From a virus, in IMG/VR virus record IMGVR_UViG_3300027743_000093, positions 1 to 23,091 of that record: DNA of 23,091 nt; one strand, 5' to 3'. Position numbers and translations under genes: made by a program. This document shows, piece by piece, positions 1-23,091 of the stretch. Each line of letters opens with the position of its first letter. The stretch's first letter is position 1. The notes under the pieces are model-generated. The model had not been told where the DNA came from, ran no database searches, and saw nothing but the letters and a program-made list of their open reading frames with translations.

Positions 1-44
1 TCAAACTAATAGGAAACTTCTCCCCCAAAAGCCAATTCCCAAAC

Positions 45-287
45 ATGCAATCTGATATCGTTGAGGCACTATATAAAGCCTCCGGTCATGAGCTAACACG
101 GGAGAAGTTGATTTTGAGGTTCTACGGGCGTCAAGACGTATCAACCCATGAGCTAGATCGTGCAATTAACAAGCTGGTCCATCACAACCGTGTGATACAA
201 TGGACGGGACAAGGTTATAGATTGAGTGACAAGTATATGGATAGCGAAGCATACAAAGTGAGAGTCAATGAAGATCATTCCCGGTGA
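45..287 (+). CDS. Small winged-helix-like protein, hypothetical
   Basis: An 80-residue soluble protein of unknown function. Its helix-helix-strand pattern resembles a small winged-helix fold: VEALYKASG, then REKLILRFYG, then ELDRAINKLVHHNRVIQWTG followed by a GYRLS turn. The alternation of a recognition-helix-like segment (HELDRAINKLVHHNRVI) with a short beta wing (IQWTGQGYRLS) is typical of small regulators, but no family motif is decisive. No Shine-Dalgarno sequence is visible before the ATG (upstream CCAATTCCCAAAC), so the true start or its expression is uncertain. It overlaps the next gene by 20 bases, which suggests coupling. DNA binding is inference only. Confidence 0.6.
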   Translation: MQSDIVEALYKASGHELTREKLILRFYGRQDVSTHELDRAINKLVHHNRVIQWTGQGYRLSDKYMDSEAYKVRVNEDHSR

Positions 288-723
288 ATACGATATTGTC
301 TCACGCCAGACACTAAACCTCAATCGATTACGTGCGGCCCATAGAACGTCGTGTGACGCATCGATGGCATACCTTCTGGTCGCTGTAATGCATGAGCATG
401 CATTCCCTAACAGTTCAATTCAGCTACCTCGCGTAAGATTGCGTAAGCCTAGAATCGGATTGCAATCAGCTCGAGGTTGGGGCGGTGTCAAAAAAGGTAG
501 AGGCTATATGAGTCTCCCTGAAACACCGATGTCAGATCCCAATAAGCCATACGGCAGATTGCGGGCCGGTCTGGTAATTCACGAATACGCGCACGTCGTA
601 GAATTCCTGAAGTATGGTAGGTCAGATCACGGTGCGCGTTTCACGATGATCCTTGACGAGCTATTGTTCCACACAGAAAAGTTCTGGTCAGTTCAGTCCA
701 GTAAAGCAGCGGAGGCAAAGTGA
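268..723 (+). CDS. SprT-like zinc metallopeptidase
   Basis: A 151-residue protein with a zinc-protease signature: HEYAH at residues 105-109 (H105 and H109 as zinc ligands, E106 catalytic), then DHGARF at 120-125 giving the third ligand H121. HExxH followed about 12 residues later by HGxxF is the arrangement of SprT/Spartan/Wss1-like metallopeptidases, which in cells degrade DNA-protein crosslinks. The N-terminal half (1-95) has no recognisable motif, and I see no C-terminal zinc ribbon, so this is a minimal version. It sits at the head of the early operon; its stop overlaps the next GTG start. Virion-linked or host-targeted roles cannot be excluded. Family assignment is fairly sure; the biological role is inferred. 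Confidence 0.75.
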   Translation: MKIIPGEYDIVSRQTLNLNRLRAAHRTSCDASMAYLLVAVMHEHAFPNSSIQLPRVRLRKPRIGLQSARGWGGVKKGRGYMSLPETPMSDPNKPYGRLRAGLVIHEYAHVVEFLKYGRSDHGARFTMILDELLFHTEKFWSVQSSKAAEAK

Positions 724-1196
724 GTGACGAATTAAACGAGGAATCAACTGTTCACCCGATGAACACCGTAGAAGCAAGCGATAGCCCAATTCAGGAACGT
801 CTGAAAAAGGCATATATAGACAAATACAATTCGCTCAAGGTCAGTGATATGACGCCTGAACAGGTGAAATTTCATATTGCAGATCTTGAAGATGCAATCA
901 AGGTTCTACAAACTCAGGTTCAAGCGACGTTAGACGTATCTGACGAATGGGCTGAGACTGCTACTGCTGAACAGCGCGAAGCTCTGAGAATTGCTGATAA
1001 GAAGTATAGGGCCAAAGCGCGGCCCGCGATGAACAGTGACGGAACGATCAAGACAGCTCACGCTCGCGTAGCGAAGCCCGTAGTCGTAGGTGACGCTGGT
1101 TCTCAAGCATTCGAGAACCTAGTGAACAAACTGGTCGCGGCAGGTCAGACAAGAGAACAGGCTATAAAGCTCATTCAAGGTATGAAAGGTAAGTAA
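720..1196 (+). CDS. Hypothetical protein with coiled-coil region
   Basis: A 158-residue protein that starts with GTG overlapping the TGA of the metallopeptidase gene (GTGA), so it is probably translationally coupled. Residues 1-25 are acidic and disordered. Residues 27-75 (QERLKKAYIDKYNSL to VLQTQVQATL) and 80-100 look like charged amphipathic helices that could form a coiled coil. A short basic linker follows, then a C-terminal helix-turn-helix-like tail (AFENLVNKLVAAGQTREQAIKLIQGMKGK, residues 130-158) resembling a UBA-like or small helical bundle. No enzymatic motif is seen. I do not recognise the family. Confidence 0.75.
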   Translation: MSDELNEESTVHPMNTVEASDSPIQERLKKAYIDKYNSLKVSDMTPEQVKFHIADLEDAIKVLQTQVQATLDVSDEWAETATAEQREALRIADKKYRAKARPAMNSDGTIKTAHARVAKPVVVGDAGSQAFENLVNKLVAAGQTREQAIKLIQGMKGK

Positions 1197-1197
1197 G

Positions 1198-1344
1198 ATG
1201 GAAGTTACAATCGAAGCATACGCAAACTCCTATACAGTGAAAGTCAATGGTAGAGTAGTCGGGTTCTGGACATATCTAGAAGGTGCTATTGAGGGAGCGC
1301 GCCTTGAGATCCTGGCTCGATACCCTGAGGACAAGCCGGTATGA
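1198..1344 (+). CDS. Small hypothetical protein (48 aa)
   Basis: An ATG two bases after the preceding TAA opens a 48-residue frame (MEVTIEAYANSYTVKVNG to ARYPEDKPV). The upstream AAGGTAAGTAAG can serve as a weak ribosome binding site. The N-terminal half reads as two beta strands and the rest as one helix (YLEGAIEGARLEILARY). Its stop overlaps the next ATG (ATGA), consistent with a real coupled gene. The function is not recognised. Confidence 0.6.
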   Translation: MEVTIEAYANSYTVKVNGRVVGFWTYLEGAIEGARLEILARYPEDKPV

Positions 1345-1451
1345 CTCAAGATGAATTCATGGTCGTATGGACGGCAGGAGTCATGATTACATGGCTTCTG
1401 TTCGTTCTACATATGTCAGTAGAGAATCAGAGAAAGCGTAACAGAAAATAG
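1341..1451 (+). CDS. Mini membrane protein (36 aa)
   Basis: A 36-residue frame beginning in the ATGA overlap with the previous gene. It holds one hydrophobic segment at about residues 7-24 (MVVWTAGVMITWLLFVLHM) and a basic tail (ENQRKRNRK). By the positive-inside rule the N-terminus would face outward and the basic C-terminus the cytoplasm. Small single-span phage proteins can act as holin-like, superinfection-exclusion or membrane-modulating factors; nothing here decides among these. It ends six bases before the -35 element of the following promoter. Confidence 0.55.
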   Translation: MTQDEFMVVWTAGVMITWLLFVLHMSVENQRKRNRK

Positions 1452-1456
1452 GGCAC

Positions 1457-1485
1457 TTGCCAGAACCTAGAGAGTGTGGTATAAT
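1457..1485 (+). promoter_or_regulatory. Sigma70 promoter P1 (extended -10)
   Basis: TTGCCA (1457-1462), a 17-base spacer, and TATAAT (1480-1485) preceded by TGG, an extended -10 element. This is within one base of the full bacterial consensus. The expected transcription start lies about 7 bases after the -10, at or next to the ATG at 1492. Confidence 0.8.
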
Positions 1486-1491
1486 AGAATT

Positions 1492-1695
1492 ATGAAAAGA
1501 GAATTCAAGAGAACGTGTCAAGAGTGCGGCTTTAAGCTGATATCAGCGACAGGCCCACTTCCGGGTGACAAGGTCACAAACGCCTACATTTTCAAAAAAT
1601 GTCCGAAATGCAAGTCAGAGGGATTTGATTACGGGAGTTATCAGATGATCGCTGAGACTCCCGAGGAACAGAAGGAACTGGACGAGGATTTCTAA
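1492..1695 (+). CDS. Small zinc-ribbon protein, possibly leaderless
   Basis: A 67-residue protein with two CxxC knuckles, CQEC (C9, C12) and CPKC (C37, C40), the layout of a treble-clef or zinc ribbon, followed by an acidic tail (ETPEEQKELDEDF). An upstream in-frame GTG at 1474 exists but lies between the -35 and -10 elements of P1, so it would not be on the P1 transcript; the ATG at 1492 is therefore preferred. No Shine-Dalgarno precedes that ATG, and the predicted transcript starts at or beside it, so translation may be leaderless. The role is unknown; such small zinc ribbons in phages often bind nucleic acid or host RNA polymerase, which is only a possibility here. Confidence 0.7.
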   Translation: MKREFKRTCQECGFKLISATGPLPGDKVTNAYIFKKCPKCKSEGFDYGSYQMIAETPEEQKELDEDF

Positions 1696-1697
1696 TC

Positions 1698-1910
1698 ATG
1701 CAAAGATGGTATAAGCAGGTTCAGCCTGCACGACGGCTCAAGTTCGCGCTCAAGGTCACGCTTATTCAGCTTCTCATCGTCTCGGCTTCATACCTCGCAG
1801 GTTCATTTGAGGAGATTCGCACCGATGGCTCAGGCGATTGGTGCGCGCATTTCAACACTTTCATGGTCTGCAATTCGCCTGGTGGCACGGATTACGTCCT
1901 TGGCGAATAA
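1698..1910 (+). CDS. Small single-span membrane protein
   Basis: A 70-residue protein preceded by a GAGGAT ribosome binding site inside the end of the previous gene. Residues 1-17 are basic (QRWYKQVQPARRLKFALK), residues 18-38 form one hydrophobic helix (VTLIQLLIVSASYLAG), and the C-terminal 30 residues are polar and contain two cysteines (C49 and C58), which could form a periplasmic disulfide. By charge the N-terminus is cytoplasmic. The last 86 bases overlap in another frame with the ribbon-helix-helix gene. The function is unknown; a spanin, holin-like or exclusion role is possible but unsupported. Confidence 0.6.
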   Translation: MQRWYKQVQPARRLKFALKVTLIQLLIVSASYLAGSFEEIRTDGSGDWCAHFNTFMVCNSPGGTDYVLGE

Positions 1911-2130
1911 GCGAGGTAGACCGATTCACCCTGATGCACCGAACCGTGGTGCAAAGACGATCTATGTCAAGGACTGGTCCCGTTGGGATCAGTTCATTGA
2001 CCTCGCTAATAAGCGTGGTCAGTCTGTCAGTGAGCTTCTCAGTGAGGCTGTAGATCGTATGCTCGCTGGAGAGAATGCAGCTGAGTATAAGATTACACAA
2101 ATTCGTCGTATTCTGGATGGTGATCAATGA
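1825..2130 (+). CDS. Ribbon-helix-helix DNA-binding protein
   Basis: A 101-residue protein. Residues 44-48 (KTIYV) form the DNA-contacting beta strand, residues 51-64 helix A (WSRWDQFIDLANKR), and residues 67-80 helix B (SVSELLSEAVDRML), the order seen in Arc/MetJ/CopG ribbon-helix-helix repressors, which bind palindromic operators as dimers of dimers. The chosen ATG has an upstream GAGGAG (1809-1814). A later TTG at 1900 would give a 76-residue protein starting just before the conserved domain and would reduce the overlap with the membrane-protein gene, so the start is uncertain. It may control the palindromes near 3199-3260; that link is inference. Confidence 0.7.
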   Translation: MAQAIGARISTLSWSAIRLVARITSLANKRGRPIHPDAPNRGAKTIYVKDWSRWDQFIDLANKRGQSVSELLSEAVDRMLAGENAAEYKITQIRRILDGDQ

Positions 2131-2136
2131 GCGCGT

Positions 2137-2211
2137 TTGAGTATAGTGTGGATTGCAGCGTGCATGACAATCTGGGTCATTTACATCTTTTCTCGTAAGG
2201 TCAAGAAATGA
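2137..2211 (+). CDS. Possible 24-aa membrane peptide
   Basis: A TTG (2137) or GTG (2146) start would give a peptide with one hydrophobic span (VWIAACMTIWVIYIF) and a basic tail (SRKVKK). Its TGA overlaps the ATG of the next gene (ATGA at 2208-2211), which fits the coupling pattern around it. A competing frame from ATG 2127 gives 23 polar residues and is less attractive. There is no strong ribosome binding site, so this is tentative. Confidence 0.35.
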   Translation: MSIVWIAACMTIWVIYIFSRKVKK

Positions 2212-2453
2212 AAACCGCATATCAAGTGTTCCTCTGTATCGCATATGAGCCAGATCAAGTATTTGGCACATTCGCGACAGAGGAAGAGGCTAATAAGTAT
2301 TGCGACGAACTGAAGAACGAGCGCAATATGTCACACTATGCAGATATCGAGGTCGGCACGATGCGCGTGTGGGATTCTGTCGATGAAATGAAGGAGCAGA
2401 ACGCGCGTGACATCGCAGAATGGGAAAGATTGAATTCAAATGACAGAATATGA
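2208..2453 (+). CDS. Hypothetical protein (81 aa)
   Basis: An acidic 81-residue soluble protein. It begins with a hydrophobic beta strand (AYQVFLCIAYE), followed by a helix typical of small alpha/beta phage proteins (TEEEANKYCDELKNE), a strand (YADIEVGTMRVW) and a charged C-terminal helix (SVDEMKEQNARDIAEWERL). The TATEEEANKYCDEL-type segment resembles sequences in many phage proteins that report amino-acid spacing in a small ferredoxin-like fold, but no specific family is recognised. Start ATG overlaps the upstream frame; a GGTCAAG sequence upstream is a weak ribosome binding site. Confidence 0.7.
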   Translation: MKTAYQVFLCIAYEPDQVFGTFATEEEANKYCDELKNERNMSHYADIEVGTMRVWDSVDEMKEQNARDIAEWERLNSNDRI

Positions 2454-2607
2454 CAAGCTCTTGAGAACGATCGAAAAGACACGTTCTGGATCGAATGACG
2501 ATAACGTGCGCGCCTGCATGGAGATCCTCAGCAAACTCATGAGAGGAGAAGATGTATATTCTAAAGTGCGAGGCATTCAACGACGAGCCAACGACAAGGT
2601 TCAGTAA
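2440..2607 (+). CDS. Small hypothetical protein (55 aa)
   Basis: A 55-residue basic helical protein (MTEYDKLLRTIEKTRSGS to RRANDKVQ) starting within the end of the preceding gene; GGGAAAG about 14 bases upstream is only a weak ribosome binding site. Its 3' end overlaps the next gene by 56 bases in another frame. No motif is recognised. The long overlap lowers confidence, although the preceding ATG placement fits the compact operon. Confidence 0.45.
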   Translation: MTEYDKLLRTIEKTRSGSNDDNVRACMEILSKLMRGEDVYSKVRGIQRRANDKVQ

Positions 2608-2989
2608 CAAATGCTGTTCAGGTGATTGTCACAGTAAGCAATTATTTATTAACGTGACACCCTATGCAGATGATGCTACATTGGAGAACAGACGAATTGA
2701 TTGGAGTCTCGGAATCCAAGGTTATGTATGTTGTGGTAGATATGAGTTTGTAAGGTCTTTATCTCGCGAATGGTGGATCAGACGGCTAGCAATCATAGAT
2801 AACTGGTCTGAGTCTAAAGTGAGTGAGTTTCTCACACAAGGCTCATGGCACAAAACATTCGACGAGCCGAAGACGAAGTCAAGTTCAGCGAACCGAAGTA
2901 AAGTTCAGATAAAGAAAACAATTAATAGTTGCCCACAATGTGGGTCTAGATGGAATGAGGTAGCTTGTGACGAATGCGGCTATTCGTAA
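2552..2989 (+). CDS. Hypothetical protein with C-terminal zinc ribbon
   Basis: A 145-residue protein with an excellent ribosome binding site (GAGAGGAGAA just before the ATG). The N-terminal part is cysteine-rich (C6, C21, C22, C26, then C60 and C61), which could bind a first zinc. Residues 62-100 contain tryptophan-rich helices. A Ser/Lys linker (105-125) leads to a C-terminal zinc ribbon, CPQC (C127, C130) and CDEC (C139, C142). The architecture of globular domain, linker and ribbon suggests nucleic-acid or protein binding, but I cannot name the family. The next gene starts inside its 3' end. Confidence 0.75.
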   Translation: MYILKCEAFNDEPTTRFSNKCCSGDCHSKQLFINVTPYADDATLENRRIDWSLGIQGYVCCGRYEFVRSLSREWWIRRLAIIDNWSESKVSEFLTQGSWHKTFDEPKTKSSSANRSKVQIKKTINSCPQCGSRWNEVACDECGYS

Positions 2990-3197
2990 TGCGAGGATTC
3001 AAGCAGCATTGTCTGATTTTCATGTGATGAATACAGATCGGCAATGGGCGCGCGTTGTAGTAAATGGACAAAACATAATGCTACAGTATGGTGCGATTCA
3101 TTCCAATGGGATGGAAGAGATTCCTATCGGTGAGCGTTATTATACCTGGATTGGTGAGCGTGGTGTCGTGACGACACAACGACACATCTGTGGTTAG
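2967..3197 (+). CDS. Hypothetical protein (76 aa)
   Basis: A 76-residue protein from a GTG start with a GAGG motif seven bases upstream, overlapping the end of the zinc-ribbon gene by 23 bases. An N-terminal helix (AAIRNARIQAALSDFHV) is followed by a beta-rich region (RVVVNGQNIMLQYGAI, RYYTWIGERGVVTTQ). It is the last gene before the palindrome-rich regulatory region. No family is recognised. Confidence 0.6.
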   Translation: MTNAAIRNARIQAALSDFHVMNTDRQWARVVVNGQNIMLQYGAIHSNGMEEIPIGERYYTWIGERGVVTTQRHICG

Positions 3198-9753: not shown

Positions 9754-9780
9754 ATGGGGGGCTTCGGCCCCCTATATTTT
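9754..9780 (+). terminator. Intrinsic terminator after acidic gene
   Basis: GGGGGC-TTCG-GCCCCC (9757-9772) with further flanking pairs and a TATATTTT tail. The ultra-stable TTCG tetraloop and T-rich tail make a classic rho-independent terminator. An in-frame ATG at 9754 lies inside it, so the true start of the next gene is at 9790. Confidence 0.9.
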
Positions 9781-9789
9781 GGAGGTTGG

Positions 9790-11058
9790 ATGAAACTAGC
9801 TATAGATAGTATCATCGTTAAAGAAGGACCTGTTAATGAGGAAGAGGTTCAGAATCTTGCTGAGTCTTTTAAGGAACAAGGTCAATTACACCCACTAGCT
9901 GTCCATAGCGTAGCAGGCAGTTACGTCCTTATAACAGGACGCAAGCGTCTATCAGCCGCATTGATCTGTGGTTGGAAAGAAGTTGAGTGTGCTGTCCATG
10001 AAGGACTAAGTGATCAACAGATCGAGGAGATTGCGCTCCACGAGAATTTGAAACGATACAACTTGCCTTGGTATGAGCAGGTGACGATGGTCGAGAGACT
10101 TCACCTTCTCAAACAACAGATTCATGGCAAGCCCCCTGAGCAGGGCGGAGGACATGACAAGGTAGGTTGGTCAGTCAGAGATACGGCAGCCGCGTTGAGC
10201 CAGGCTCTGGGTAAGACCTCTCAAGACCTGCAACTCGCGCGCCACGTAAGGCTCGACCCATCCTTGTCTAAGGTCAAGGACAAGCGCACCGCACTTCGTC
10301 TAGTTCGTATTGCTGTAAAGCGAATAGATGATGAAGAGCAAGCTGGTGCGGCTGATTATGGCATAAAGATGAACCAGCTTTTTTGCGGCGACTCTGCCGT
10401 CGTATTAAAGCACATCCCAGATAATACCTTCCATGCCTGTATCACAGATCCACCTTGGCTCAGATTCTTTGATTCAACTCTGCGACTCGACGAAAGGACA
10501 TTGCCCGTTTTTCGGGAGTTGTATCGGGTCATGCGTTACGATAGCTTCATCTACATATTCGCCGGATTTGACGACTATCATTACTACTCTGGGAGGACAG
10601 AGCCAGATAGTATATTGCCGTCAGAAACCAAACGAATTCCTGGAGAACTTGAAAAAATCGGGTTCCGTGTGGCCAAGACTCCTCTCTTTTGGAGAAAGCT
10701 CAAATCTTTGTCCCGTCGGGGCGTTACTGCGTGGGAGCACGGACGTGATTTCGAGATCATTGTTTTGGCTGTTAAGGGCAATCCAGTCCTAGCAGGTGGA
10801 ACTCAGGATACCTCTTTCTTTGACTTCGACGCCGTCCCGCCAGTCAAGCTCATCCATGCTAACGAGAAACCTATCGACCTAATGAAGAAGCTGCTCGAAG
10901 AATGCACTCATGAGGGTAATGCAGTCATCGACCCATTCGCAGGTTCATTCGTTGTGCCTGATGCTTGCAAGCAGATGAAGAGGTATTGGATTGGTATAGA
11001 TAGGGATCAGGAGTCATATTCTAGAGGATGTAAGAGACTAGGAATTGAGGAACAGTAG
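9790..11058 (+). CDS. ParB-like/DNA methyltransferase fusion
   Basis: A 422-residue two-domain protein. Residues 1-95 match the ParB/sulfiredoxin-like nuclease fold (ITGRKRLSAALICGW, then ENLKRYNLPWYEQ). Residues about 120-190 look helical and may bind DNA. Residues 194-420 form a beta-class N6-adenine or N4-cytosine methyltransferase: catalytic DPPW at 220-223, NEKP at 358-361, and the SAM-binding DPFAGS at 381-386, continuing SFVVPD rather than the usual GSGT. The ATG has GGAGG four bases upstream and follows a terminator, so it may have its own promoter or use read-through. It may modify the phage genome against restriction. Confidence 0.85.
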   Translation: MKLAIDSIIVKEGPVNEEEVQNLAESFKEQGQLHPLAVHSVAGSYVLITGRKRLSAALICGWKEVECAVHEGLSDQQIEEIALHENLKRYNLPWYEQVTMVERLHLLKQQIHGKPPEQGGGHDKVGWSVRDTAAALSQALGKTSQDLQLARHVRLDPSLSKVKDKRTALRLVRIAVKRIDDEEQAGAADYGIKMNQLFCGDSAVVLKHIPDNTFHACITDPPWLRFFDSTLRLDERTLPVFRELYRVMRYDSFIYIFAGFDDYHYYSGRTEPDSILPSETKRIPGELEKIGFRVAKTPLFWRKLKSLSRRGVTAWEHGRDFEIIVLAVKGNPVLAGGTQDTSFFDFDAVPPVKLIHANEKPIDLMKKLLEECTHEGNAVIDPFAGSFVVPDACKQMKRYWIGIDRDQESYSRGCKRLGIEEQ

Positions 11059-11857: not shown

Positions 11858-12211
11858 ATGTATGGATCGAAGACCTTCTATGATCTTCTCAAAGAAGCCG
11901 GACAACTGCACTCTTTGAAGTCACATGACTATGCGTCTGACAAAGATCCTTATGCAAACTATAAGTTTGCTGGTCAGATGTCCAAGTTGTTCGATGATCC
12001 TGATGATTCTGGTTTTGTTGGTCGTATTGCAGAGAAGCTGTACAGGCTGGCCAATCTAGAGAACAACAGGAAAGAACCAAAGAACGAAAGTGTTGAGGAT
12101 ACTGAGCGCGACCTCTGTGTGCTCATGATCCTCTGGATGAGCATGAGGAAAGACAGAAGGAAAACTGAAGTAGCTGAGCAGGGAATTAACGAGAATGTCC
12201 CAATCTCCTAG
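11858..12211 (+). CDS. DUF1599-like nucleotide-modification-associated protein
   Basis: A 117-residue helical protein starting at ATG 11858 with GAGG nine bases upstream. The core LKSHDYASDKDPYANYKFAG, FVGRIAEKLYRLANLE and ESVEDTERDLCVLMILW resembles DUF1599 (nucleotide modification associated domain 1), which is found in phages with modified bases and next to nucleotide enzymes. Its biochemical activity is not established. A frame opening 96 bases upstream adds residues inside the preceding gene and lacks a ribosome site, so it was not chosen. It overlaps the polymerase start by 17 bases. Confidence 0.7.
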   Translation: MYGSKTFYDLLKEAGQLHSLKSHDYASDKDPYANYKFAGQMSKLFDDPDDSGFVGRIAEKLYRLANLENNRKEPKNESVEDTERDLCVLMILWMSMRKDRRKTEVAEQGINENVPIS

Positions 12212-14636
12212 ATACGTTCCAGGTATAGGCCCATTCGGAGCTAAGCTAGCTATCGTTGGTGAAGCTCCAGGTGCGGCCGAAGATATATCAGGACGTCCCT
12301 TCGAAGGACCTGCTGGAGATCTTCTCAATGCTTTTCTACGTGAGGCAGGGATCAATAGAGCAGATTGCTACATCACCAATGTCGTGAAGTTCAGGCCACC
12401 TGAGAACGACATGAAGCGTCTGAATGAGATTGGTGTATCATTAGCTCAGTCTACACAAGAACTATTTGATGAGCTTCATGCACTAAATCCCAACTGCGTC
12501 CTTGCCCTCGGTAATACAGCACTCCAGGCACTAACCAACAAGACAGGTATCAAGGTATATCGAGGCTCGGTATTAAGAAGCAGTGACTTCAATCTCAAGG
12601 TAGTCTCGACCTATCACCCTGCACACTTGCTGAGGCAAGCAGGTGGTGAGGTTGCAGACTATGCAGCACGAGCCTATGTAAGTCTAGACTTTGCTAAGGC
12701 TGCTCGCGAAGCTCTGACACCTGAGTATCATGTTCCTGATAGGTTGCTCACGGTGTGCCGCAACAGTCTCGATCTGTTTAGGTTCAAGCGTCAGTACTCA
12801 GGGAAGCAGAAGGTTGCGGTAGACATCGAATCATACAAGTGCATTCCAGTCTGTGTCTCGTTTGCTTTCAGTCGCTATCATGCTATCAGTGTACCTCTAG
12901 TCAACATGACTGGCTCGCAAAGCGAGACATGGATTCCTTATCATGAACTTGTTCAGATGTGGAAATTCGTATCAGATATTCTTGATGACCCGCGCTACGA
13001 GCTTATCGGACAGAACTTTAAGTTCGACGATGCGAAGCTACGTTCGCCATGTAGTTTTAGACCAGCGAACTTGTATGCTGATACAATGCTCATGGCGCAT
13101 ACCCTTTACCCGGAGTTTCCTCTGGGTCTTGCTTTTCTGGCTAGCATTTGGACGGATGAACCCTACTACAAAACAGAAGGGAAAGAATTCAACCCAAAGA
13201 GGGATACTTATGATAGGCTCTACCTCTATAACGCTAAGGATGCGGCGATTACTTTTGAGGTATTCGAAGAGCAAGACAAAGAGCTAGCTGAGATGGGTCT
13301 TTCTGATTTCTACTACAACTATGTCAACAGATTGCACAATGCATATCGTGACATGGAACAGGTAGGATTGCTACTTGATGTTAATCGAAACAAAGAACTG
13401 AAAAAGAAATATAGAGCAGAGTTAGCTGAGGGTCAGGCAAGGCTCAATGAGTCAGTTGGGAGGCCAATTAATGTCGCATCGCCTAAGCAAGTTAACGAAT
13501 TACTATATCGTGACATGGGTTTACCCCTCCGCAAGGATACCTCGGAGGATACTCTCGTTGCACTCCAGAATAACGTCTGCAAAGTCGAGAGTGATAAAGC
13601 AATCCTCGCTGACATCCTGCTCATACGTCGTATCAGAAAGACGCTTGGAACATATCTTGAAGCAAGAGCTGACTACGACGGACGAATGCGGACTAGTTAT
13701 AGAATTGTTGGGACAGAGACGGGCCGCACCTCGACTACCCTCCTCAAAGCACCTGTAAGGCCGCACAAGATTGGCTTGGCATTTCAAACAATGACCAAGC
13801 ATGGTGAAACTGGATCAGATTTGCGTAGTCAATTCGTTGCAGACGATGGCTACGTGTTTGTAGAGATTGACTCGTCTCAAGCTGAGGCTAGAGTCGTAGC
13901 TCTACTTGCTAACGATTTAGAATTGCTGTCGCTCTTTGATACTACTGATGTTCACAAGCTAACTAGTAGTTGGATATTCAACTGCGCTCCGGAGAAGGTT
14001 ACGTATGAGCTTAGATTCGTTGGGAAGACAACGAGGCACGCAGGAAACTACGGCATGGGAAAAGCAAGGCTCATGCAAATCATTAATACTGATGCAAAGA
14101 AATTCCGCATCAACATCCAGGTCAGTGAGTGGAAAGCTGGACAGATTCTGGACGCATTCCATAACTTTTCGCCAAAGATACGTCAAGTTTTCCACACTGA
14201 AGTTGTACAAGCCTTACGCGACAATGATAGGATTCTCATTAACCCTTTCGGCAGACGTAGGCAATTCTTCGGTCGCTTCGATCACGAGTTGGAGAAAGAG
14301 TCATTTGCTCAAATTCCTCAGTCGACAATTACTGATAACACGAAGCGCGCGCTCCTCGATATCAGGGACAGAACTGCTGATGACGTTCGAATCTGGGGGT
14401 CGTTTGCTAGCACTACAGGAATATGTGTTGAGGCACACGATGCGCTTGTCGCACTAGTTCGTGAGACAGAGATAGATCAATACTTGAGCTACGCTGTTCC
14501 AGCATTCGAGTTACCTATAGATTTCTCGCAATGCACCTTGCCTCGTGGTACAATCAGTATTCCGTGTGAGGTAAAAGTTGGAAAGAATTACAAAGATTTA
14601 AAGGACTACGTTCATACCTCACACCAGAGTCTTTGA
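12195..14636 (+). CDS. UDG-like domain / DNA polymerase I fusion
   Basis: An 813-residue replicative polymerase. Residues 15-170 match a family-4-like uracil-DNA glycosylase: GEAPGAAED at 22-30, TNVVKFRPP at 61-69, HPAHLLR at 141-147. This arrangement is known from SPO1-type phage polymerases. The Fe-S cysteines of family 4 appear to be missing. Residues about 205-380 are a 3'-5' proofreading exonuclease (D210, E212, D278, and D349 in YNAKD). The family A polymerase domain has motif A around D559 (VEIDSSQAEAR), motif B with K611 and Y619 (GKTTRHAGNYGMG), and motif C HDA at 748-750 instead of the usual HDE. It likely replicates the phage genome. Confidence 0.9.
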   Translation: MSQSPRYVPGIGPFGAKLAIVGEAPGAAEDISGRPFEGPAGDLLNAFLREAGINRADCYITNVVKFRPPENDMKRLNEIGVSLAQSTQELFDELHALNPNCVLALGNTALQALTNKTGIKVYRGSVLRSSDFNLKVVSTYHPAHLLRQAGGEVADYAARAYVSLDFAKAAREALTPEYHVPDRLLTVCRNSLDLFRFKRQYSGKQKVAVDIESYKCIPVCVSFAFSRYHAISVPLVNMTGSQSETWIPYHELVQMWKFVSDILDDPRYELIGQNFKFDDAKLRSPCSFRPANLYADTMLMAHTLYPEFPLGLAFLASIWTDEPYYKTEGKEFNPKRDTYDRLYLYNAKDAAITFEVFEEQDKELAEMGLSDFYYNYVNRLHNAYRDMEQVGLLLDVNRNKELKKKYRAELAEGQARLNESVGRPINVASPKQVNELLYRDMGLPLRKDTSEDTLVALQNNVCKVESDKAILADILLIRRIRKTLGTYLEARADYDGRMRTSYRIVGTETGRTSTTLLKAPVRPHKIGLAFQTMTKHGETGSDLRSQFVADDGYVFVEIDSSQAEARVVALLANDLELLSLFDTTDVHKLTSSWIFNCAPEKVTYELRFVGKTTRHAGNYGMGKARLMQIINTDAKKFRINIQVSEWKAGQILDAFHNFSPKIRQVFHTEVVQALRDNDRILINPFGRRRQFFGRFDHELEKESFAQIPQSTITDNTKRALLDIRDRTADDVRIWGSFASTTGICVEAHDALVALVRETEIDQYLSYAVPAFELPIDFSQCTLPRGTISIPCEVKVGKNYKDLKDYVHTSHQSL

Positions 14637-16068: not shown

Positions 16069-16216
16069 GCGACCAGTAGAAGAAATGGGCTGTCCTGAGT
16101 GTAATAGCGCAGCCTATTACCAAGGTACTCAGGACAGCCATTACATCTATGTTTGTCAGAATCTACATCTAACTAGAGTACGAATTCCTAGGGTCGAGGA
16201 ACCTTCGGAAGACTAG
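16058..16216 (+). CDS. Possible small zinc-ribbon protein (52 aa)
   Basis: A 52-residue frame with CPEC (C12, C15) and C33/H37 (VCQNLH), a plausible zinc site. It overlaps the previous gene by 11 bases and the end of the opposing late gene by 29 bases. The ribosome binding site is weak. A long inverted repeat (16088-16139) lies inside the frame, so the RNA structure may be the real feature and the frame a by-product, or both may be real. Confidence 0.45.
   Translation: MEFKRPVEEMGCPECNSAAYYQGTQDSHYIYVCQNLHLTRVRIPRVEEPSED
16088..16139. repeat. Long hairpin between convergent operons
   Basis: GGCTGTCCTGAGT (16088-16100) is the exact complement of 16127-16139. A second stem, GTAATAG (16101-16107) with CTATTAC (16114-16120), continues directly inside it, with a six-base bulge on the right side. 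The result is a 20-bp stem-loop with no strong T-run on either side (minus strand is CATTTCTTCT). It lies where + and - transcripts meet and may stop or stabilise both. Confidence 0.75.
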
Positions 16217-19172
16217 AACTTGCTCGCGGAGGACGGGGGAGGCCAGAAGTAGCAGAGCCTCCTCCGACTTGTGCTGCTATACCTGAACCTACAAATGGTA
16301 TAGCCTGAGCACCTTGCTTCAACAGAGGATCGAACCTATCAGTACCACCTGGCTTGTCTGTAGCAGCTTTATAAGCTCCGTAAGATAGCTTACCAGCATC
16401 AGACAAAACAGGCCCACCTAAGAACTCAGCAAACCCTGTAGTTTTAGTCCCCGCGCTTGCGAGGTCAGCCAAGATACCAAGTGCCCAAGCTTGACCGAGA
16501 TTAGAGAATATACGATCAAGCCCATCTCCTCTATCTGCTATAGCCTGACCTGCCCCAACACCAGAAACAGTTCCCTTTATTCCTGCCTTGATATCTCCAA
16601 TACCCTCACCCATTGTGGTATATAGGGCAATAGCTAGTGGAATGTTTCGAGCAGGATTCTCCATGACTGCATCCTTGATGATGCGCGTCTGGGTGAAAGC
16701 ATACTTCTTGAAGATAAGAGGTATCTCTGCAATAGGATGACCTGACCATAACCTCGGTAGGTCAATACCCTGCGCGCGCCCCTGAGTGATCTCCGACATT
16801 CTACCACCTGCGATACCTTGCTGCTCAGGAGTTAGTTCACCCTGTTTCAGCACTTTATCGATAGGTTCTAGAACTAGATTCTGCAAACGCGCTCTTGCTC
16901 TTTTGTTTGTCGGATCTTTCTTTAGCTGTGCGAATAGCTGATTAGCTGTAGTCTTACCTGCTACAGCTGAGACAGTTCTGTTCAAGGTCTCTGACTTCTT
17001 CATCAGAAACAGCTTCGATAGCGCACCTTCTCCACCTACTTCCCTGAGCAGGTCTTGATTGATCGTCTGGAGCGCGCCTGTTGCTTCAGCCTCACCTACA
17101 GCGCCTTTATAATCTGTAATGACTTTCTTCAATGCACCAGCATATGCTCCGAGATTAGCACGTAGTGGAGTAGTCGCCATCTGAGAGAAGTTCGATATAG
17201 CATAATGAGATAGGTGTGCGGCACTCACTACCTTCCTCAAACCCCGATTGACAGCAGTCCAGGATGGATTACCTGTGCTTGCTACATCGCGACCTAGATG
17301 AGCACTAATGATCTCTCTAATTCTCTTTGGATCATCAGTCCCTTTAATCAGTTTCTCAATAGCACTATTAGGATCTGCAATGTCACGCGCTCCAAACTCG
17401 CGCGCCTCTGCGATCCTTTTACCCATATCATTTAGATGCATCAGGTCTACGTCAAGATCCATTCTATATCCTGGCGCATTACCCTGACGTTCATGTGTAG
17501 CAGATATAAGGCGCTCACCATGCTGAGCTGCATTCTCTACAGCCCTTGCTGCGTCATCAACAGTCCAGCCTTCCTTCTCTAGGTCGGCAATGAACTTGTC
17601 CTTGTTCTTAACAAGGTTCTTCCTGTCATATATGTGAGGCCAATGATTGGCTCTCTCACGAAATGGAATGATCTTTCCCTCAGCAGTCCTCAGGCCCGCA
17701 CCTGATTCCTTAGCTGCCTTGACAACCTCAGCATCTATTACTGCTCGCTTTTCTAGCGCAGCCTGGACAGCAGGATCGTTAGGAACGATGCCTTTATCTC
17801 TTGATTCGACGTAGACCTTTACCTGCCCTGGCGTTAATCCAGCAGTTGCTTCCTTAGCTCGCTTGCCCCACTCACCACCTAGATAATCACCAGCCAATCT
17901 GGTTCTAGAGATAAGCTCTGCAAGTGCAGGACCAGTCTTACCTGAGTCCCGGATGACTGAGATATCACCCTTACCTACCTCAGCAGCAGCCTGAGCACCC
18001 TTTACACCTTGCACTTTTCGTCTTTGACGCTCAAAGAATCCAACCTTCTGTGCTGCGTCCTGTAATTCTGGAATACCTGACGCTGCTGCTTTACCGACAG
18101 GACCTGTATCAGGCGCTTCGCCCATTACCTTATCTGCAACAGGTCGGGCTTTGCCTCTATCGAAGGTTCCAACAGGAGGTCCCATCTTTGGTCTAGGGTC
18201 TGACACGAACTCGTTACCAGGGATAACACTATCATCCGGACCAATCCTTCCAGAGACCCTAGGCTTGCCCTCTGGAAAGAATCCAGCCTCAGGTCCGATA
18301 TCCCAAGGCATTGTAGGTTGCGCGTCAAATCCTAGCTTCTGCCTACCAATGACAGGCTGTAGTATAGGTTGAGTAGCAGGGTCATGCACTCCGTACGGAC
18401 CAACTTCAGGTCCATACAACTCCGTTGGTGGCGGAGGAGATTCTCTGAATGGTAGACCCTGCTGCTCAAACCCATACTCAAGAGGCATCTGTCGAGGTGC
18501 AGGTTTAGCTACAGGTGGTGGAATGTCTGGCAATGCTTCTCGGACTGGTAGGGTTTTCTTTCCACCCTTGCTACCTGCAAGAGCGAGCGCGCCAGCGAAC
18601 AGACCTGACCCAGCAGCATGACCGTAACGACCTTCACCTACGTCACGAGCCATCTGTGTAACAGGTACACCTAGTCCTGCCTCTGGCAAGGTAGCTAGAC
18701 TTCTCCCTAGCGCCTTTCCATATTCACCCTTCTGTTCATACCCATAAGCCTCCCTACCACCTTGCATGAAAGGCTCAGTGACACCACCGATAAGCTCCTT
18801 CGCAGCACGCGCGCGATCCTCTATACCTGCCTGTGAGAAATCGAGATTGCCTGGTGTTAGCTTACCAACATTACTGACGAAGTGTCCAACTCCCTTAGCA
18901 CCTTCCTTTATAGCTCCTAAGAATCCTGTATCTGGAGCTTTAGGAGCTTGAGCTGTCGGAAGCTGCATAGATCTATATTCTTCTGGCAGCTCTTCAAGAT
19001 CAGTGTCAGGATAATTTGGATCAGGTTTTGGTCCAGTCGGGACGTTAGGCGTTATGCTTCGACGCCTTTGCATCCAATCCTTGACATCAGACTGAGTTGG
19101 AGGTGTAGGCTTATCCCAGTCCATGTCCAGGATCTCACCATCATAGTCTATCTGAATTCTTCTACCTGGCAT
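16188..19172 (-). CDS. Large internal virion/ejection-like protein (994 aa)
   Basis: A 994-residue protein, the last gene of the - strand late block; GAGGTGA precedes its ATG. Residues 1-85 and about 200-340 are Pro- and Gly-rich and probably disordered. Residues 370-860 are mainly helical and charged (VEKAAKESGAGLRTAEG-type segments). Residues about 860-960 hold several hydrophobic stretches (IPLAIALYTTMGEGI, AWALGILADLASAG) that could enter membranes. Size, order and composition match the largest ejection protein of podoviruses, delivered with the DNA into the cell. I see no lysozyme or transglycosylase motif. The role is inferred from context, not a family match. Confidence 0.6.
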   Translation of the reverse strand: MPGRRIQIDYDGEILDMDWDKPTPPTQSDVKDWMQRRRSITPNVPTGPKPDPNYPDTDLEELPEEYRSMQLPTAQAPKAPDTGFLGAIKEGAKGVGHFVSNVGKLTPGNLDFSQAGIEDRARAAKELIGGVTEPFMQGGREAYGYEQKGEYGKALGRSLATLPEAGLGVPVTQMARDVGEGRYGHAAGSGLFAGALALAGSKGGKKTLPVREALPDIPPPVAKPAPRQMPLEYGFEQQGLPFRESPPPPTELYGPEVGPYGVHDPATQPILQPVIGRQKLGFDAQPTMPWDIGPEAGFFPEGKPRVSGRIGPDDSVIPGNEFVSDPRPKMGPPVGTFDRGKARPVADKVMGEAPDTGPVGKAAASGIPELQDAAQKVGFFERQRRKVQGVKGAQAAAEVGKGDISVIRDSGKTGPALAELISRTRLAGDYLGGEWGKRAKEATAGLTPGQVKVYVESRDKGIVPNDPAVQAALEKRAVIDAEVVKAAKESGAGLRTAEGKIIPFRERANHWPHIYDRKNLVKNKDKFIADLEKEGWTVDDAARAVENAAQHGERLISATHERQGNAPGYRMDLDVDLMHLNDMGKRIAEAREFGARDIADPNSAIEKLIKGTDDPKRIREIISAHLGRDVASTGNPSWTAVNRGLRKVVSAAHLSHYAISNFSQMATTPLRANLGAYAGALKKVITDYKGAVGEAEATGALQTINQDLLREVGGEGALSKLFLMKKSETLNRTVSAVAGKTTANQLFAQLKKDPTNKRARARLQNLVLEPIDKVLKQGELTPEQQGIAGGRMSEITQGRAQGIDLPRLWSGHPIAEIPLIFKKYAFTQTRIIKDAVMENPARNIPLAIALYTTMGEGIGDIKAGIKGTVSGVGAGQAIADRGDGLDRIFSNLGQAWALGILADLASAGTKTTGFAEFLGGPVLSDAGKLSYGAYKAATDKPGGTDRFDPLLKQGAQAIPFVGSGIAAQVGGGSATSGLPRPPRASSSLPKVPRP

Positions 19173-19180
19173 GACTCACC

Positions 19181-20410
19181 TCAGAACTTCAGACCACCAC
19201 CGGGAGGGAGATCACCAAACTTGATAGGTCTTTGCGTAGGTGTTGTCGGATTGTTTCTCGGCGCGGCACCTACAGGACGACGCGTTCGGAGAATCTCTTG
19301 CTTTCTTGCTTCGATTGCAGCTAGGTATTCTCTGGCTGTATCATCTGGTGCATTAGTTCCAAACCAATCACTTGAATGTCGTGGCTGACCTTGTTCATCC
19401 AGTGACCAACCTGCAAACTTTGGATTCGTTCTAGCTACCTCTTGAGCAGCCATCGCATTAGCAGTAAAGTTCTCACCAGCGTTGACGAATCCAGCAGAAC
19501 CTGCATTCATACCAGACTGGTCAGCATTCTGTTGTGAGATATTGAGTTGTCTATCACGAGCTGCATTAGCGATCTCGTCCTGTGCTTGACGCTGACCAAA
19601 CTCCAGGCCGCGCTGATTCAGATTGCCTTGTGCTACGCCAAGCTGGCCTCGACTAGTCTCTGCACCAAATGCCTGGATGTTTGTGCCACGTTCTCTGTCA
19701 GCTTGTGTACGACCTGCAAGAGATGGCCCAAGGCCAATACGGTCAACCGTGCCGTCCTCCATGACCTTAACCATTTCCTCATTGCCATCCGCACCAACTC
19801 GATGGGTATAACCCTTAGTTGCCATGTCTCTGATCTGAGCTTCTCGATAAGCTCTAGTTGTGTTAGCCCCGAACTCGTCGATGTCAACCTTACGCCTGTT
19901 GAGCGCTTGGTTCTCTGCATCGACTTGTTGTTGCCTGACAGCCTTGACGTAATTGAGCTGGCTTGTAGCGTCGTCCTTCTCGATATCAGCTTGCTCCTTC
20001 AGGCCCGCGCCTTTCATCTGCCAGCCCTCTAGAGCATTTCGATACGGGGCATTTGTTACCTTCTCACCTAGAGCCATACCCGACTTTAGGTCATTGAATG
20101 AGGCAGCACCCGCAATGAGCGCGCCAGCTAACCGACGTCCCCTGGAGGGAGCATATTGTTCCTGTGTCGGTAGCTTACCAATGTGCTCTCGATATGCAGC
20201 AGAGGCTTGACCTCCCTGCATACGTTTGAGTGCCAGTGAGATAGGATCGTTGTCAGCCTCTTCAGATGTAGGTCCGCTGATAGGATTGGGTGCTGTCTGC
20301 CCTCGATTGAAATCGATTTTCCGATAAGCGCCCATCAAAGGATCTTCCTGCTGAGGACTGAAGATATTGGCGAACCGACGCATGTTGAAGGCGTTATCTT
20401 CTCTGGGCAT
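19181..20410 (-). CDS. Structural/ejection-like protein (409 aa)
   Basis: A 409-residue protein rich in Gln, Ala, Gly and Asn. Residues about 125-290 form long helices suited to coiled coils (LKEQADIEKDDATSQLNYVKAVRQQQVDAENQ). The C-terminal 40 residues are Pro/Gly-rich (PRNNPTTPTQRPIKFGDLPPGGG), probably disordered. Its start overlaps the stop of the 443-residue gene (TAATG). Order and composition fit the middle of three ejection proteins in podoviruses; there is no family signature to confirm this. Confidence 0.6.
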   Translation of the reverse strand: MPREDNAFNMRRFANIFSPQQEDPLMGAYRKIDFNRGQTAPNPISGPTSEEADNDPISLALKRMQGGQASAAYREHIGKLPTQEQYAPSRGRRLAGALIAGAASFNDLKSGMALGEKVTNAPYRNALEGWQMKGAGLKEQADIEKDDATSQLNYVKAVRQQQVDAENQALNRRKVDIDEFGANTTRAYREAQIRDMATKGYTHRVGADGNEEMVKVMEDGTVDRIGLGPSLAGRTQADRERGTNIQAFGAETSRGQLGVAQGNLNQRGLEFGQRQAQDEIANAARDRQLNISQQNADQSGMNAGSAGFVNAGENFTANAMAAQEVARTNPKFAGWSLDEQGQPRHSSDWFGTNAPDDTAREYLAAIEARKQEILRTRRPVGAAPRNNPTTPTQRPIKFGDLPPGGGLKF

Positions 20411-21741
20411 TAGCCTACTCCATATCCTCTCTTATCCATCCCAGCGCCGCCACCCATGCCGCTGATACCACCACCAATCACATTGGTGAGGCCACCACTA
20501 AAGTAGGTGCCTGCCATCCCTGCCGCAGCATTTAGGGCATCACGACCCCAACCCTGATCTCTAGGTAAAGCACCTTGACTTTCGTTCCAGACTCCTCTAG
20601 ATTTCAATCTGTTTTCGTCGTAAAGTGCAACCTCACCTGGAGTATCGCTTCTCAGACCACGCAAACCACCTGCGCCAGCTAATGCATTATCAGCTAGGAA
20701 TGATGCTCTCCATCTAGAGTCAGCAGCCGCGTTAGCAGCAGACATAACTCCCCTGTTAGCCGCACCTTCAGCGAGGTCTGCAAGTCCTCTAGTTCCAGCA
20801 AGCTCATTACCTGTCTTGAGTCCTTGCCAGCTAGTCTCATTTCCAGCAGCCGCACCTGCTGCATTAGTCTTATTGCCTGCAATGGAGTTTGCCATGCCCG
20901 TAGTGGCATCTACGACTCCACCCATACCTGATAACTTGTTTCGAGAGAGAAGTTCTTGAAGACCCTGCTCCGCACTCGACAGACCTGAAGTTCCCCACTG
21001 TCGACCTTTATTGACAGCGTCCTTAATTCCTAGTTCAGTGTCTCTCGATGCTTCCGCAACTCCTCGCGATTCATCTCTCGCAAGGCGTGACATGAGAGCG
21101 GCTTGACCTGGACCACCACCCCCTTGTACCCTGCCGAGACGATTGCCTTCTTCCCTGACCCTGTCGTAGAATGCGGGTATTCCTGATGTGCCGCGCGACC
21201 TGGCGTTGGCGATGTCTTGATCGTTGTAGCCTCCAGTGCGCGAAAATTCGTCAAAGACCCCCATTCCACGGATGCGGTTTCGTCCTTCCTCATCGACGCC
21301 GCCACCTTCAGCAAAGTTTTTATACTGACCAATCGAACGATTGACATCAGCAATTTGCTCAGGTGACCAACCACCATTGTCAGCAATACCCCCAAGGATA
21401 CCCTGGTATTTGTTGAAGTTTGTTGGATCAAGTCCACCACCATTCATGAATTTTTGATAGGAAGCTGTATAATCTCCTGCTGCATCTGGAGTAGGACCTG
21501 CTCCACCTCCTCCACCTCCTCCTGGCTGACCAGCAGTAGGATTGAAAGCATAGGCTTGGTCTAAATAACCCTGACCTCCAGTAGCAGCAAAGTCCTGATA
21601 AAGTTTGTTAGCTCCAGCATAGGCTTCATTGCTACGATTATAAGCCTCACCAGATCGTTGCTTCTGCTCAGTCTCGAATTGTGATTGATAGTTCTGACTC
21701 TGCTGTAGTTGCTTATCGACGTCTTTTTTGTTGCCACCCAT
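20410..21741 (-). CDS. Gly/Ala-rich structural/ejection-like protein (443 aa)
   Basis: A 443-residue protein with a Gln/Asn-rich N-terminal helix (QQSQNYQSQFETEQKQRSGEAYNRS), a polyglycine linker near residues 72-85, and long Ala/Gly-rich helices throughout. Residues 390-443 are hydrophobic and Gly-rich (AAAGMAGTYFSGGLTNVIGGGISG), suggesting membrane interaction. GGAG lies before its ATG, which overlaps the GNAT stop (TAATG). With the next two genes it resembles the three consecutive internal proteins of podovirus capsids (for example T7 gp14-gp16 or P22 gp7, gp20, gp16), by gene order. Confidence 0.6.
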   Translation of the reverse strand: MGGNKKDVDKQLQQSQNYQSQFETEQKQRSGEAYNRSNEAYAGANKLYQDFAATGGQGYLDQAYAFNPTAGQPGGGGGGGAGPTPDAAGDYTASYQKFMNGGGLDPTNFNKYQGILGGIADNGGWSPEQIADVNRSIGQYKNFAEGGGVDEEGRNRIRGMGVFDEFSRTGGYNDQDIANARSRGTSGIPAFYDRVREEGNRLGRVQGGGGPGQAALMSRLARDESRGVAEASRDTELGIKDAVNKGRQWGTSGLSSAEQGLQELLSRNKLSGMGGVVDATTGMANSIAGNKTNAAGAAAGNETSWQGLKTGNELAGTRGLADLAEGAANRGVMSAANAAADSRWRASFLADNALAGAGGLRGLRSDTPGEVALYDENRLKSRGVWNESQGALPRDQGWGRDALNAAAGMAGTYFSGGLTNVIGGGISGMGGGAGMDKRGYGVG

Positions 21742-22124
21742 TACAGCTCCTTGACCAAAAGTTCCCCTGGTCTGTCTGCCTTGAAGAAACGGAAGTGCTT
21801 TTGCATTATAAGTGCGAAGTCTGGATCAGCACAAAAAGCATATAGCTCTTGAATCCCTGCCTGCTCTGTACCTCTAAAGCCCTCAAGTATCAACATCCTA
21901 AATGCGTTGACACGAGAACGAAGCGGAGCAGACTTATCGAGAAAGAGCATAGCTTCCGCAAAAAGCTTGACTTGGCCATAACCGATAATCTTTCCCTGGT
22001 CCTCGACCACAGCATCTATGATCGACGACCTTCTATTCGGTAGGCCGTAATAGTCTGAGTGATGGTCTTCCCAAATCTTACTGATAGCTGGGACATCGTC
22101 CCAAGTAAAGCATCTTAATTTCAT
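21741..22124 (-). CDS. GNAT-like acetyltransferase
   Basis: A 127-residue protein of GNAT shape: strand, helix (VPAISKIWEDHH), beta strands IIDAVVEDQGKIIGYGQVKL, then LRSRVNAFRMLILEGFRG as motif A, and YAFCADPDFALIMQKHFRFFKADRPGELLVKEL as the C-terminal part with motif B. The acetyl-CoA loop RSRVNA lacks the usual Q/RxxGxG/A glycines, so activity is uncertain. Similar GNAT-like genes are found beside structural genes in tailed phages. No clear ribosome site is visible, and the ATG lies just after the PEP-CTERM terminator. Confidence 0.75.
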   Translation of the reverse strand: MKLRCFTWDDVPAISKIWEDHHSDYYGLPNRRSSIIDAVVEDQGKIIGYGQVKLFAEAMLFLDKSAPLRSRVNAFRMLILEGFRGTEQAGIQELYAFCADPDFALIMQKHFRFFKADRPGELLVKEL

Positions 22125-22156: not shown

Positions 22157-22900
22157 TTACGCACGATTGAAACGCTTACGAGCCTTACCAGCCAAAGCGA
22201 ACAGTCCCGTACCAAGAAGCAACATCGAACCAGGCTCAGGAACAGCCGCAAGCTGATCCTTGATAAGAGTCTGTCCTCGGCTAGTCAATTGCCCACCAGC
22301 AGTCAGTGACAGATCAAATGACAGCGTCATTCCGAACAACGCCGGATCGAGCACAGCGATGTTATTCACCGTATGTGAGAATGCATCAGTATCTGGTCCT
22401 GCCACATCTGCAAAGCTAGACAACAGAATACCGGGTGTATCAGTAGGTGTCTCTGCACCCTGCTGATTGGCAGGATCATTGTGCCATCGCAATGCAATGG
22501 TTGATCCTTCAGCGTCTGTCCAAGTTCCACTGCCGCTCAATGAAGCCTCAGCAATAGGTCCAAGGAAGTTGATACTACCAACTGCCACCGTGCCATTTAC
22601 CGTCGCACCAGTGTTGTTGGTGATCTGCAACGATGAGCTATTTAGCACGTTATGCGTGCCAATAGTCTCGGTATGCAGAGAACCCTGAACATTCAATCCA
22701 CCAATGGTAGCTGGCGCAAGTGACAGACTTCCAAGAGTGGGATCAATATCCAGAAGTGTCGCACCAAAGGTACAACCGATGTTGTTGTCGGATGCACAGA
22801 AATCCGTGCCTCCGATTGTCCCAGCCAACAACAGCGGACCTGCTGATGCGCGAGCTGCGACCAACAAAACGAAAACAAATACTACACAAAGTCTCTTCAT
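22157..22900 (-). CDS. Phage-encoded PEP-CTERM sorting-signal protein
   Basis: A 247-residue secreted protein. Residues 1-20 are a Sec signal peptide (basic MKR, hydrophobic CVVFVFVLLVAA, likely cut after ASA). Residues 21-219 are a low-charge, Gly/Ser/Thr/Asn-rich beta domain with C35 and C43 likely paired. The C-terminus has the complete PEP-CTERM tripartite signal: VPEPGS at 220-225, a hydrophobic helix (MLLLGTGLFALAG), and a basic tail (KARKRFNR). In bacteria exosortase (EpsH/XrtA) cleaves at this signal and exports the protein, often to the surface or into exopolysaccharide. GGGGGA precedes the ATG. It is 18 bases after the upstream late gene and ends in its own terminator. Confidence 0.9.
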   Translation of the reverse strand: MKRLCVVFVFVLLVAARASAGPLLLAGTIGGTDFCASDNNIGCTFGATLLDIDPTLGSLSLAPATIGGLNVQGSLHTETIGTHNVLNSSSLQITNNTGATVNGTVAVGSINFLGPIAEASLSGSGTWTDAEGSTIALRWHNDPANQQGAETPTDTPGILLSSFADVAGPDTDAFSHTVNNIAVLDPALFGMTLSFDLSLTAGGQLTSRGQTLIKDQLAAVPEPGSMLLLGTGLFALAGKARKRFNRA

Positions 22901-22918: not shown

Positions 22919-23091
22919 TCATTCACCCTTTTCGATGGTAAGAGATTCCCAGGAGTGCGCGTCTCCCTCTTTACCAATCCAGTTGATAGGCGCATCTGCC
23001 TTAGTTGGTCCGCCACCCTGAATACCAGCGAGCAGACCTGAGTTGGTGCGGAGCGCAATCTTGTCTCCCAGCTTGACAGCAGCGCAGGCTG
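22919..23091 (-). CDS. Partial protein with fascin/beta-trefoil-like end
   Basis: The last 56 residues of a - strand gene that continues past the right edge. The visible end reads VKLGDKIALRTNSGLLAGI, then GGG, then WIGKEGDAHSWESLTIEKG, which resembles a fascin/beta-trefoil repeat (G-x-x-v-a-L-r-t-x-x-G, ending W-E-x-f/L-x-l-e). Such domains bind glycans or actin-like polymers; in a phage late operon a receptor-binding or adhesion role is plausible. Only one repeat is visible, so the family is tentative. Confidence 0.55.
   Translation of the reverse strand, partial: ACAAVKLGDKIALRTNSGLLAGIQGGGPTKADAPINWIGKEGDAHSWESLTIEKGE

Follow-up and report, generated by a model that had tools for sequence, protein, structure and literature searches.

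The window analysed here is the whole 23,091-base stretch of an IMG/VR virus record, and it carries, on the minus strand, a gene for a PEP-CTERM protein set among co-oriented genes, with the following features.

22157..22900, minus strand: PEP-CTERM protein gene of family A, 247 aa (open reading frame, TIGR02595 and PF07589 matches over cut-off, homologs in other phage contigs)
22841..22900, minus strand: signal peptide, residues 1–20 (MKRLCVVFVFVLLVAARASA), predicted by eye and from hydropathy, an N-terminal helix in the structure model
22244..22840, minus strand: mature domain, residues 21–219, predicted all-beta and jelly-roll-like, with an FCASDNN..C motif (alignments, AlphaFold2 model, fold search)
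22157..22246, minus strand: PEP-CTERM sorting tail (VPEP, hydrophobic helix, basic end, stop codon), with TIGR02595 at 22172–22243 and PF07589 at 22175–22246
22919..23091, minus strand: C-terminal end of an upstream co-oriented gene, possibly beta-trefoil-like, 221 aa in contig L002, where it is complete (L002:3028-3693)
21741..22124, minus strand: downstream GNAT-like gene, 127 aa, 27% identical (E 4e-17) to L007:10804-11208
16188..21741, minus strand: three late genes (443, 409 and 994 aa) for presumed virion proteins, syntenic with L007 and L026, with pairwise matches to L007

The PEP-CTERM gene starts with ATG and lies 18 nt after the 221-aa gene and 32 nt before the GNAT-like gene, which adjoins it also in L007 and L026. 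The N-terminus of the product (MKRLCVVFVFVLLVAARASA, followed by GP) reads as a typical Sec signal peptide, with a basic n-region, a strongly hydrophobic core (hydropathy 3.7) and an AxA-type cleavage site, signal peptides being assigned here from hydropathy and by eye. No lipobox cysteine is present at the cleavage site (between ASA and GP), and a unimolecular spanin was rejected on this ground. Against TIGR02595 the C-terminus (VPEPGSMLLLGTGLFALAGKARKRFNRA) scores 25.4 bits (E 8.9e-7), where the cut-off is 16, and against Pfam PF07589 it scores 33.7 bits (E 1.4e-9 in the record), where the cut-off is 20.7; neither model found a match in 14 control genomes. The original prediction had described a PEP-CTERM protein with a signal peptide and a full tail and had proposed the TIGR02595 profile as the check; the protein is indeed genuine, with the tail above the curated cut-offs and the N-terminal signal peptide recognisable from hydropathy. 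Furthermore, the PEP motif, the hydrophobic helix and the basic tail are kept in 13 distinct homologs, and the tail is thus more than a chance resemblance.

The AlphaFold2 model, computed on a 13-row alignment (mean pLDDT 85.9), consists of an all-beta domain (residues 24–216) and a C-terminal helix (223–246). Its best Foldseek match was CBM61 (E 5e-9, TM 0.33–0.52), and among solved structures it comes closest to glycan-binding modules of jelly-roll fold and to surface proteins that bind glycans (7kwc, Z 9.5; CBM61, Z 8.8; 8–13% identity), although matches of Z 8–9.5 lie near background. The modelled beta-sandwich domain gives only a hint of a possible glycan-binding role. A PDB sequence search with the window protein returned no significant match, the best being cyanovirin (E 0.07). 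Homology of the mature domain to PraB was not accepted (NCBIfam E 0.0028, far under the PraB cut-off), and the likeness to the flocculation-associated PEP-CTERM protein PepA (NF033554) consists of the tail and a weak, mainly C-terminal similarity of 23.8 bits against a curated cut-off of 80, which places the protein outside that family.

The window contig is from a phage. Among its products, with strong PHROG matches, are an SNF2-type helicase, a DUF3987 primase-like protein and a fusion of uracil-DNA glycosylase (UDG) and exonuclease with a family A DNA polymerase. The fusion is a single open reading frame (12195-14636, plus strand) joining a family 4 uracil-DNA glycosylase, a 3'-5' exonuclease and the polymerase, with homologous frames in L014, L020 and L026; another frame (9754-11058, plus strand) joins a ParB N-terminal domain to an N6/N4 DNA methylase. 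The virus recurs in a separate assembly as L002 (contig 3300009168_000137), in which the PEP-CTERM protein is 100% identical and the 443- and 994-aa proteins are identical as well. L002 reaches approximately 3.5 kb past position 23091 and adds the rest of the 221-aa gene, a methyltransferase-like gene, a radical-SAM gene and a His/Asp-rich repeat frame. Host genes beyond 23091, which the original prediction had named as evidence for a bacterial chromosome, were looked for on this extension, and nothing recognisably chromosomal was found in it. The radical-SAM region just past the window end (L008, IMGVR_UViG_3300009168_000137, 2-3038) comprises a radical SAM/SPASM peptide-maturase-like gene (550-1716), the His/Asp-rich repeat frame (2-553, HSDVPHSD...) and the methyltransferase; the radical SAM protein carries at its C-terminus the same HGDTPHGDSHGD motif as the adjoining repeat frame, and the region is possibly a phage-borne peptide-modification cassette.

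Two larger contigs, L007 (45 kb, GC 0.40, with a terminase matching phrog_979 at 8e-30) and L026 (46 kb), share with the window the order PEP-CTERM gene, GNAT-like gene, 2 virion-like genes, a gene for a protein of approximately 950–1000 aa, and convergent primase and polymerase genes, with the proteins neighbouring the PEP-CTERM gene only 23–36% identical between L007 and the window. Placement in a phage operon is borne out by the L002 extension and by this synteny. By contrast, the labels "lectin-like" and "ejection-like" given earlier to the neighbours find no support in Pfam, NCBIfam or PHROG: the upstream 221-aa gene matched no Pfam or NCBIfam model, and the three late genes matched no known family. 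Upstream of the PEP-CTERM pair of L026 lies a 467-aa protein (L026:7759-9162) that by eye is beta-trefoil/fascin-like, like the upstream 221-aa gene of the window.

Successive profile scans of viral contigs returned 3, 18, 28 and then 103 stretches encoding relatives, 80 of which were kept; the family extends to roughly a hundred further contigs of uncultured phages in IMG/VR (up to 103), and phage terminase, portal or capsid genes occur on contigs carrying it. All members of a 13-member alignment (13/13) have the signal peptide, the conserved FCA[ST]DNN..C motif and the PEP-CTERM tail, and more divergent members have lost part of the motif but retain DN..C. A plain PEP tail was recovered by a strict pattern in 64 of the 79 loci analysed from the last scan; the others were cut by contig ends, affected by frame choice or the length limit of the pattern, or carry variant hydrophobic-basic tails (for example, VPETSTWAM..., REPGSLAL..., VTEPASLAM...), some of them near the PEPxxWA-CTERM model and below its cut-off. 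PF07589 exceeded its cut-off in 19/19 and 40/48 phage records, and most of those below it retain an EP/PE-variant hydrophobic and basic tail, some PEPxxWA-like. Values of dN/dS in six pairs were 0.06–0.27 (that of L022/L025 rests on saturated dS), and this purifying selection shows that the genes are functional. Searches with tblastn revealed no close homologs of family A in phage isolates or plasmids, and the PEP-CTERM proteins had no match in a defence-protein library.

As PEP-CTERM proteins are otherwise bacterial and misassigned pieces can occur in IMG/VR, the gene might be a captured host gene without phage function, or the viral contigs might be contaminated with bacterial DNA. This explanation is already largely refuted, and we consider it very improbable: in several lineages the gene is joined to phage operons by 4-nt overlaps, gene GC follows that of each contig across a range of 0.40–0.67, the gene is under purifying selection and synteny is conserved over deep divergence. 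Moreover, two scans across 84,980 genomes of bacteria and archaea detected no family A gene; they used peptide patterns narrower than the viral ones, such that divergent bacterial relatives could escape them. Contamination by host chromosome is rejected for the window by the L002 extension, the syntenic phages L007 and L026 and the embedding in an operon.

The genomic site of the gene differs between phages, as listed below.

Window, L007 and L026: late region
L014 and L020 lineages: replication operon, between a PD-(D/E)XK nuclease gene and an AAA_24 ATPase gene
L027: cluster of terminase, capsid and portal genes, directly downstream of the portal gene and before the next open reading frame (junctions: 4-nt overlap, 3-nt gap)
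L024: after the terminase gene
L042: before the terminase gene
L049: PEP pair two genes before the terminase gene
L044 and L046: directly after the endolysin gene
L047: downstream of a DUF3383 gene
L023: after RuvC
L003: approximately 2.2 kb from a phage integrase gene

The PEP-CTERM proteins of the window and L014 are 58% identical, compared with 40% for the polymerases, 32% for the primases, 33% for the RecA-like proteins and 27% for the nucleases, and the gene occupies different sites in the two phages. Because the PEP-CTERM protein is more similar than the replication proteins (27–40%) and the site has changed, the comparison indicates that the gene has moved between phages. The family is widespread, mobile and often tandem. 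It is not tied to ejection genes, since other lineages place the gene in early replication or packaging operons, and the variety of sites (late, lysis-adjacent, packaging and replication operons) suggests that the product acts alone rather than as part of one machine. The terminase of L027, compared with those of isolates from many hosts, is less than 60% identical to any of them, giving no host call.

These sites bear on two further explanations. Tailed phages assemble in the cytoplasm. A protein that decorates the particles would account for the location of the gene inside the structural cluster in some phages (the window, L027), yet it lies far from structural genes in others, and the Sec signal peptide would export the product from the compartment in which virions are assembled; display on virions via the host exosortase, one of the roles suggested originally, is for this reason unlikely, and we regard a virion component as the least probable of the roles considered here, hardly to be expected. 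Alternatively, the product could be a late envelope protein that helps to break or release the cell, for example, by overloading the exosortase or the outer membrane, as might be expected from a gene that in L044 and L046 comes immediately after the one for the endolysin and in the window lineage is grouped with late genes. However, the replication-operon site in L014 and L020 and the position after RuvC in L023 do not fit a lysis function, the mature domains are too variable for a conserved lysis step, and we consider this role improbable.

The architecture of the phage proteins is that of the bacterial substrates of the PEP-CTERM/exosortase (EpsH, XrtA) system recognised by TIGR02595 and PF07589, namely a signal peptide, a poorly conserved middle and a tail of VPEP, helix and basic residues, and as in the phages there are often several such genes per genome (Haft et al. 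2006, PMC1569441). In bacteria, Sec is taken to export these substrates, with the C-terminal helix retaining them and an EpsH-type exosortase acting on them (PMC1569441). Unlike the bacterial substrates, the proteins described here are encoded by phages, move between unrelated phages and have a mature domain that matches no curated family, and no exosortase was found on the same contigs: none of the phage records, which may be incomplete, contained PF09721 (0/19 and 0/48, 0/67 in total). Processing would therefore need the exosortase of the host, in line with the earlier expectation that the host supplies it, and by analogy with the bacterial system the phage protein probably uses that enzyme.

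We propose that the protein is made during infection and exported by the host Sec machinery, that its C-terminal helix would hold it in the inner membrane, and that the host's own exosortase would recognise the VPEP motif, after which the protein would either be set free or become anchored, on the outside of the cell or within the exopolysaccharide matrix, where the beta-sandwich domain may alter the infected cell's surface. Its purpose would most likely be to block the adsorption of superinfecting phages and to spare released progeny from being lost to the debris of lysed cells. That the gene is cargo directed to the host envelope is, in our judgement, very probable; the complete explanation, in which a mobile phage cargo reaches the envelope via Sec and the host exosortase and masks the surface against superinfection and loss to debris, is the best available and is put forward tentatively. 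Surface masking would fit the mobility of the gene, the exchange of mature domains described below and the indifference to genomic neighbours. Classic exclusion proteins are early products, and the grouping of the gene with late genes in the window lineage speaks against an exclusion role. Superinfection exclusion by an envelope protein has a precedent in Llp of phage T5, and exclusion proteins also keep phages from adsorbing to fragments of lysed cells (PMC9586334). Llp and similar proteins are likewise small exported phage cargo with predicted action at the envelope; Llp, however, is a lipoprotein, whereas the window protein lacks a lipobox and carries an exosortase-type tail, its exclusion function being putative.

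The main rival to surface masking is that the exported protein changes the exopolysaccharide (EPS) matrix or the aggregation of the host, aiding the escape of progeny from flocs or, in temperate phages, benefiting the lysogen. Bacterial PEP-CTERM proteins are described as required for floc formation in two reports (PMC9850573, PMC9012009), EPS genes were present in all PEP-CTERM bacteria of the first survey (PMC1569441), the predicted fold resembles glycan-binding modules and L003 has a nearby phage integrase. On the other hand, the fold match is near background, the protein has no enzyme-like motif and the available sequence of most contigs gives no indication of lysogeny; we consider matrix remodelling rather unlikely. 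Both a block to superinfection and an alteration of host EPS, as first suggested for this gene, are nonetheless plausible actions of a PEP-CTERM protein.

Further insight into the surface-masking explanation comes from phages with two PEP-CTERM genes. A second gene overlaps the first by 4 nt in L044, L046, L047, L048, L049, L052 and L072, and a different second gene adjoins the first in L007, L026 and L024. The second proteins belong to at least two families, B and C, which other contigs carry singly (15 and 8 loci in total), and their presence could reflect a function that takes two proteins, a point against the surface-masking explanation. Two of these phages, L044 and L046, are related: their endolysins are 87% identical, their 773-aa virion proteins 79% and their family A proteins 64%. 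In the products of their second genes, 24 of 25 residues agree in the signal peptide and 25 of 27 in the tail, whereas the mature domains share no significant similarity (best E 0.24). The mature domain has thus been completely exchanged between nearly identical signal peptide and tail, as expected of a surface protein under exchange. It is possible, though doubtful, that these genes form an exchangeable cassette system among uncultured phages, with a fixed signal peptide and exosortase tail, swappable and often tandem mature domains and a tail type matched to the sorting enzyme of the host, serving as weapons in a phage–phage contest over the surface of the infected cell (superinfection exclusion via the host exosortase). 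One family B protein (L055:5001-5720) has the tail PGPIVGAGLPGMLAALLAMLGLRWRRRLVA in place of PEP-CTERM, which matched no NCBIfam model and may be another sorting signal.

Descriptions of the PEP-CTERM/exosortase system so far present it as a pathway by which bacteria deliver surface and matrix proteins, and full-text searches, largely outside the subscription journals, turned up no paper that treats PEP-CTERM proteins encoded by phages as a phenomenon. The nearest is a study of Yellowstone hot-spring viruses, which mentions in passing TIGR03118 proteins that were acquired horizontally and bear a putative exosortase-interaction domain (PMC11003980). Phages appear to use the exosortase route for cargo of their own, repeatedly and in unrelated lineages. 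If so, the exosortase would be a host factor in phage infection and would offer a handle on the hosts of these phages, which must have a matching exosortase, and the phage proteins, being movable between strains, would provide test cases for PEP-CTERM protein function. Among the contigs carrying the family, L022 also encodes a terminase-like open reading frame with an internal Hint/intein-type domain (L022:6524-8128, minus strand).
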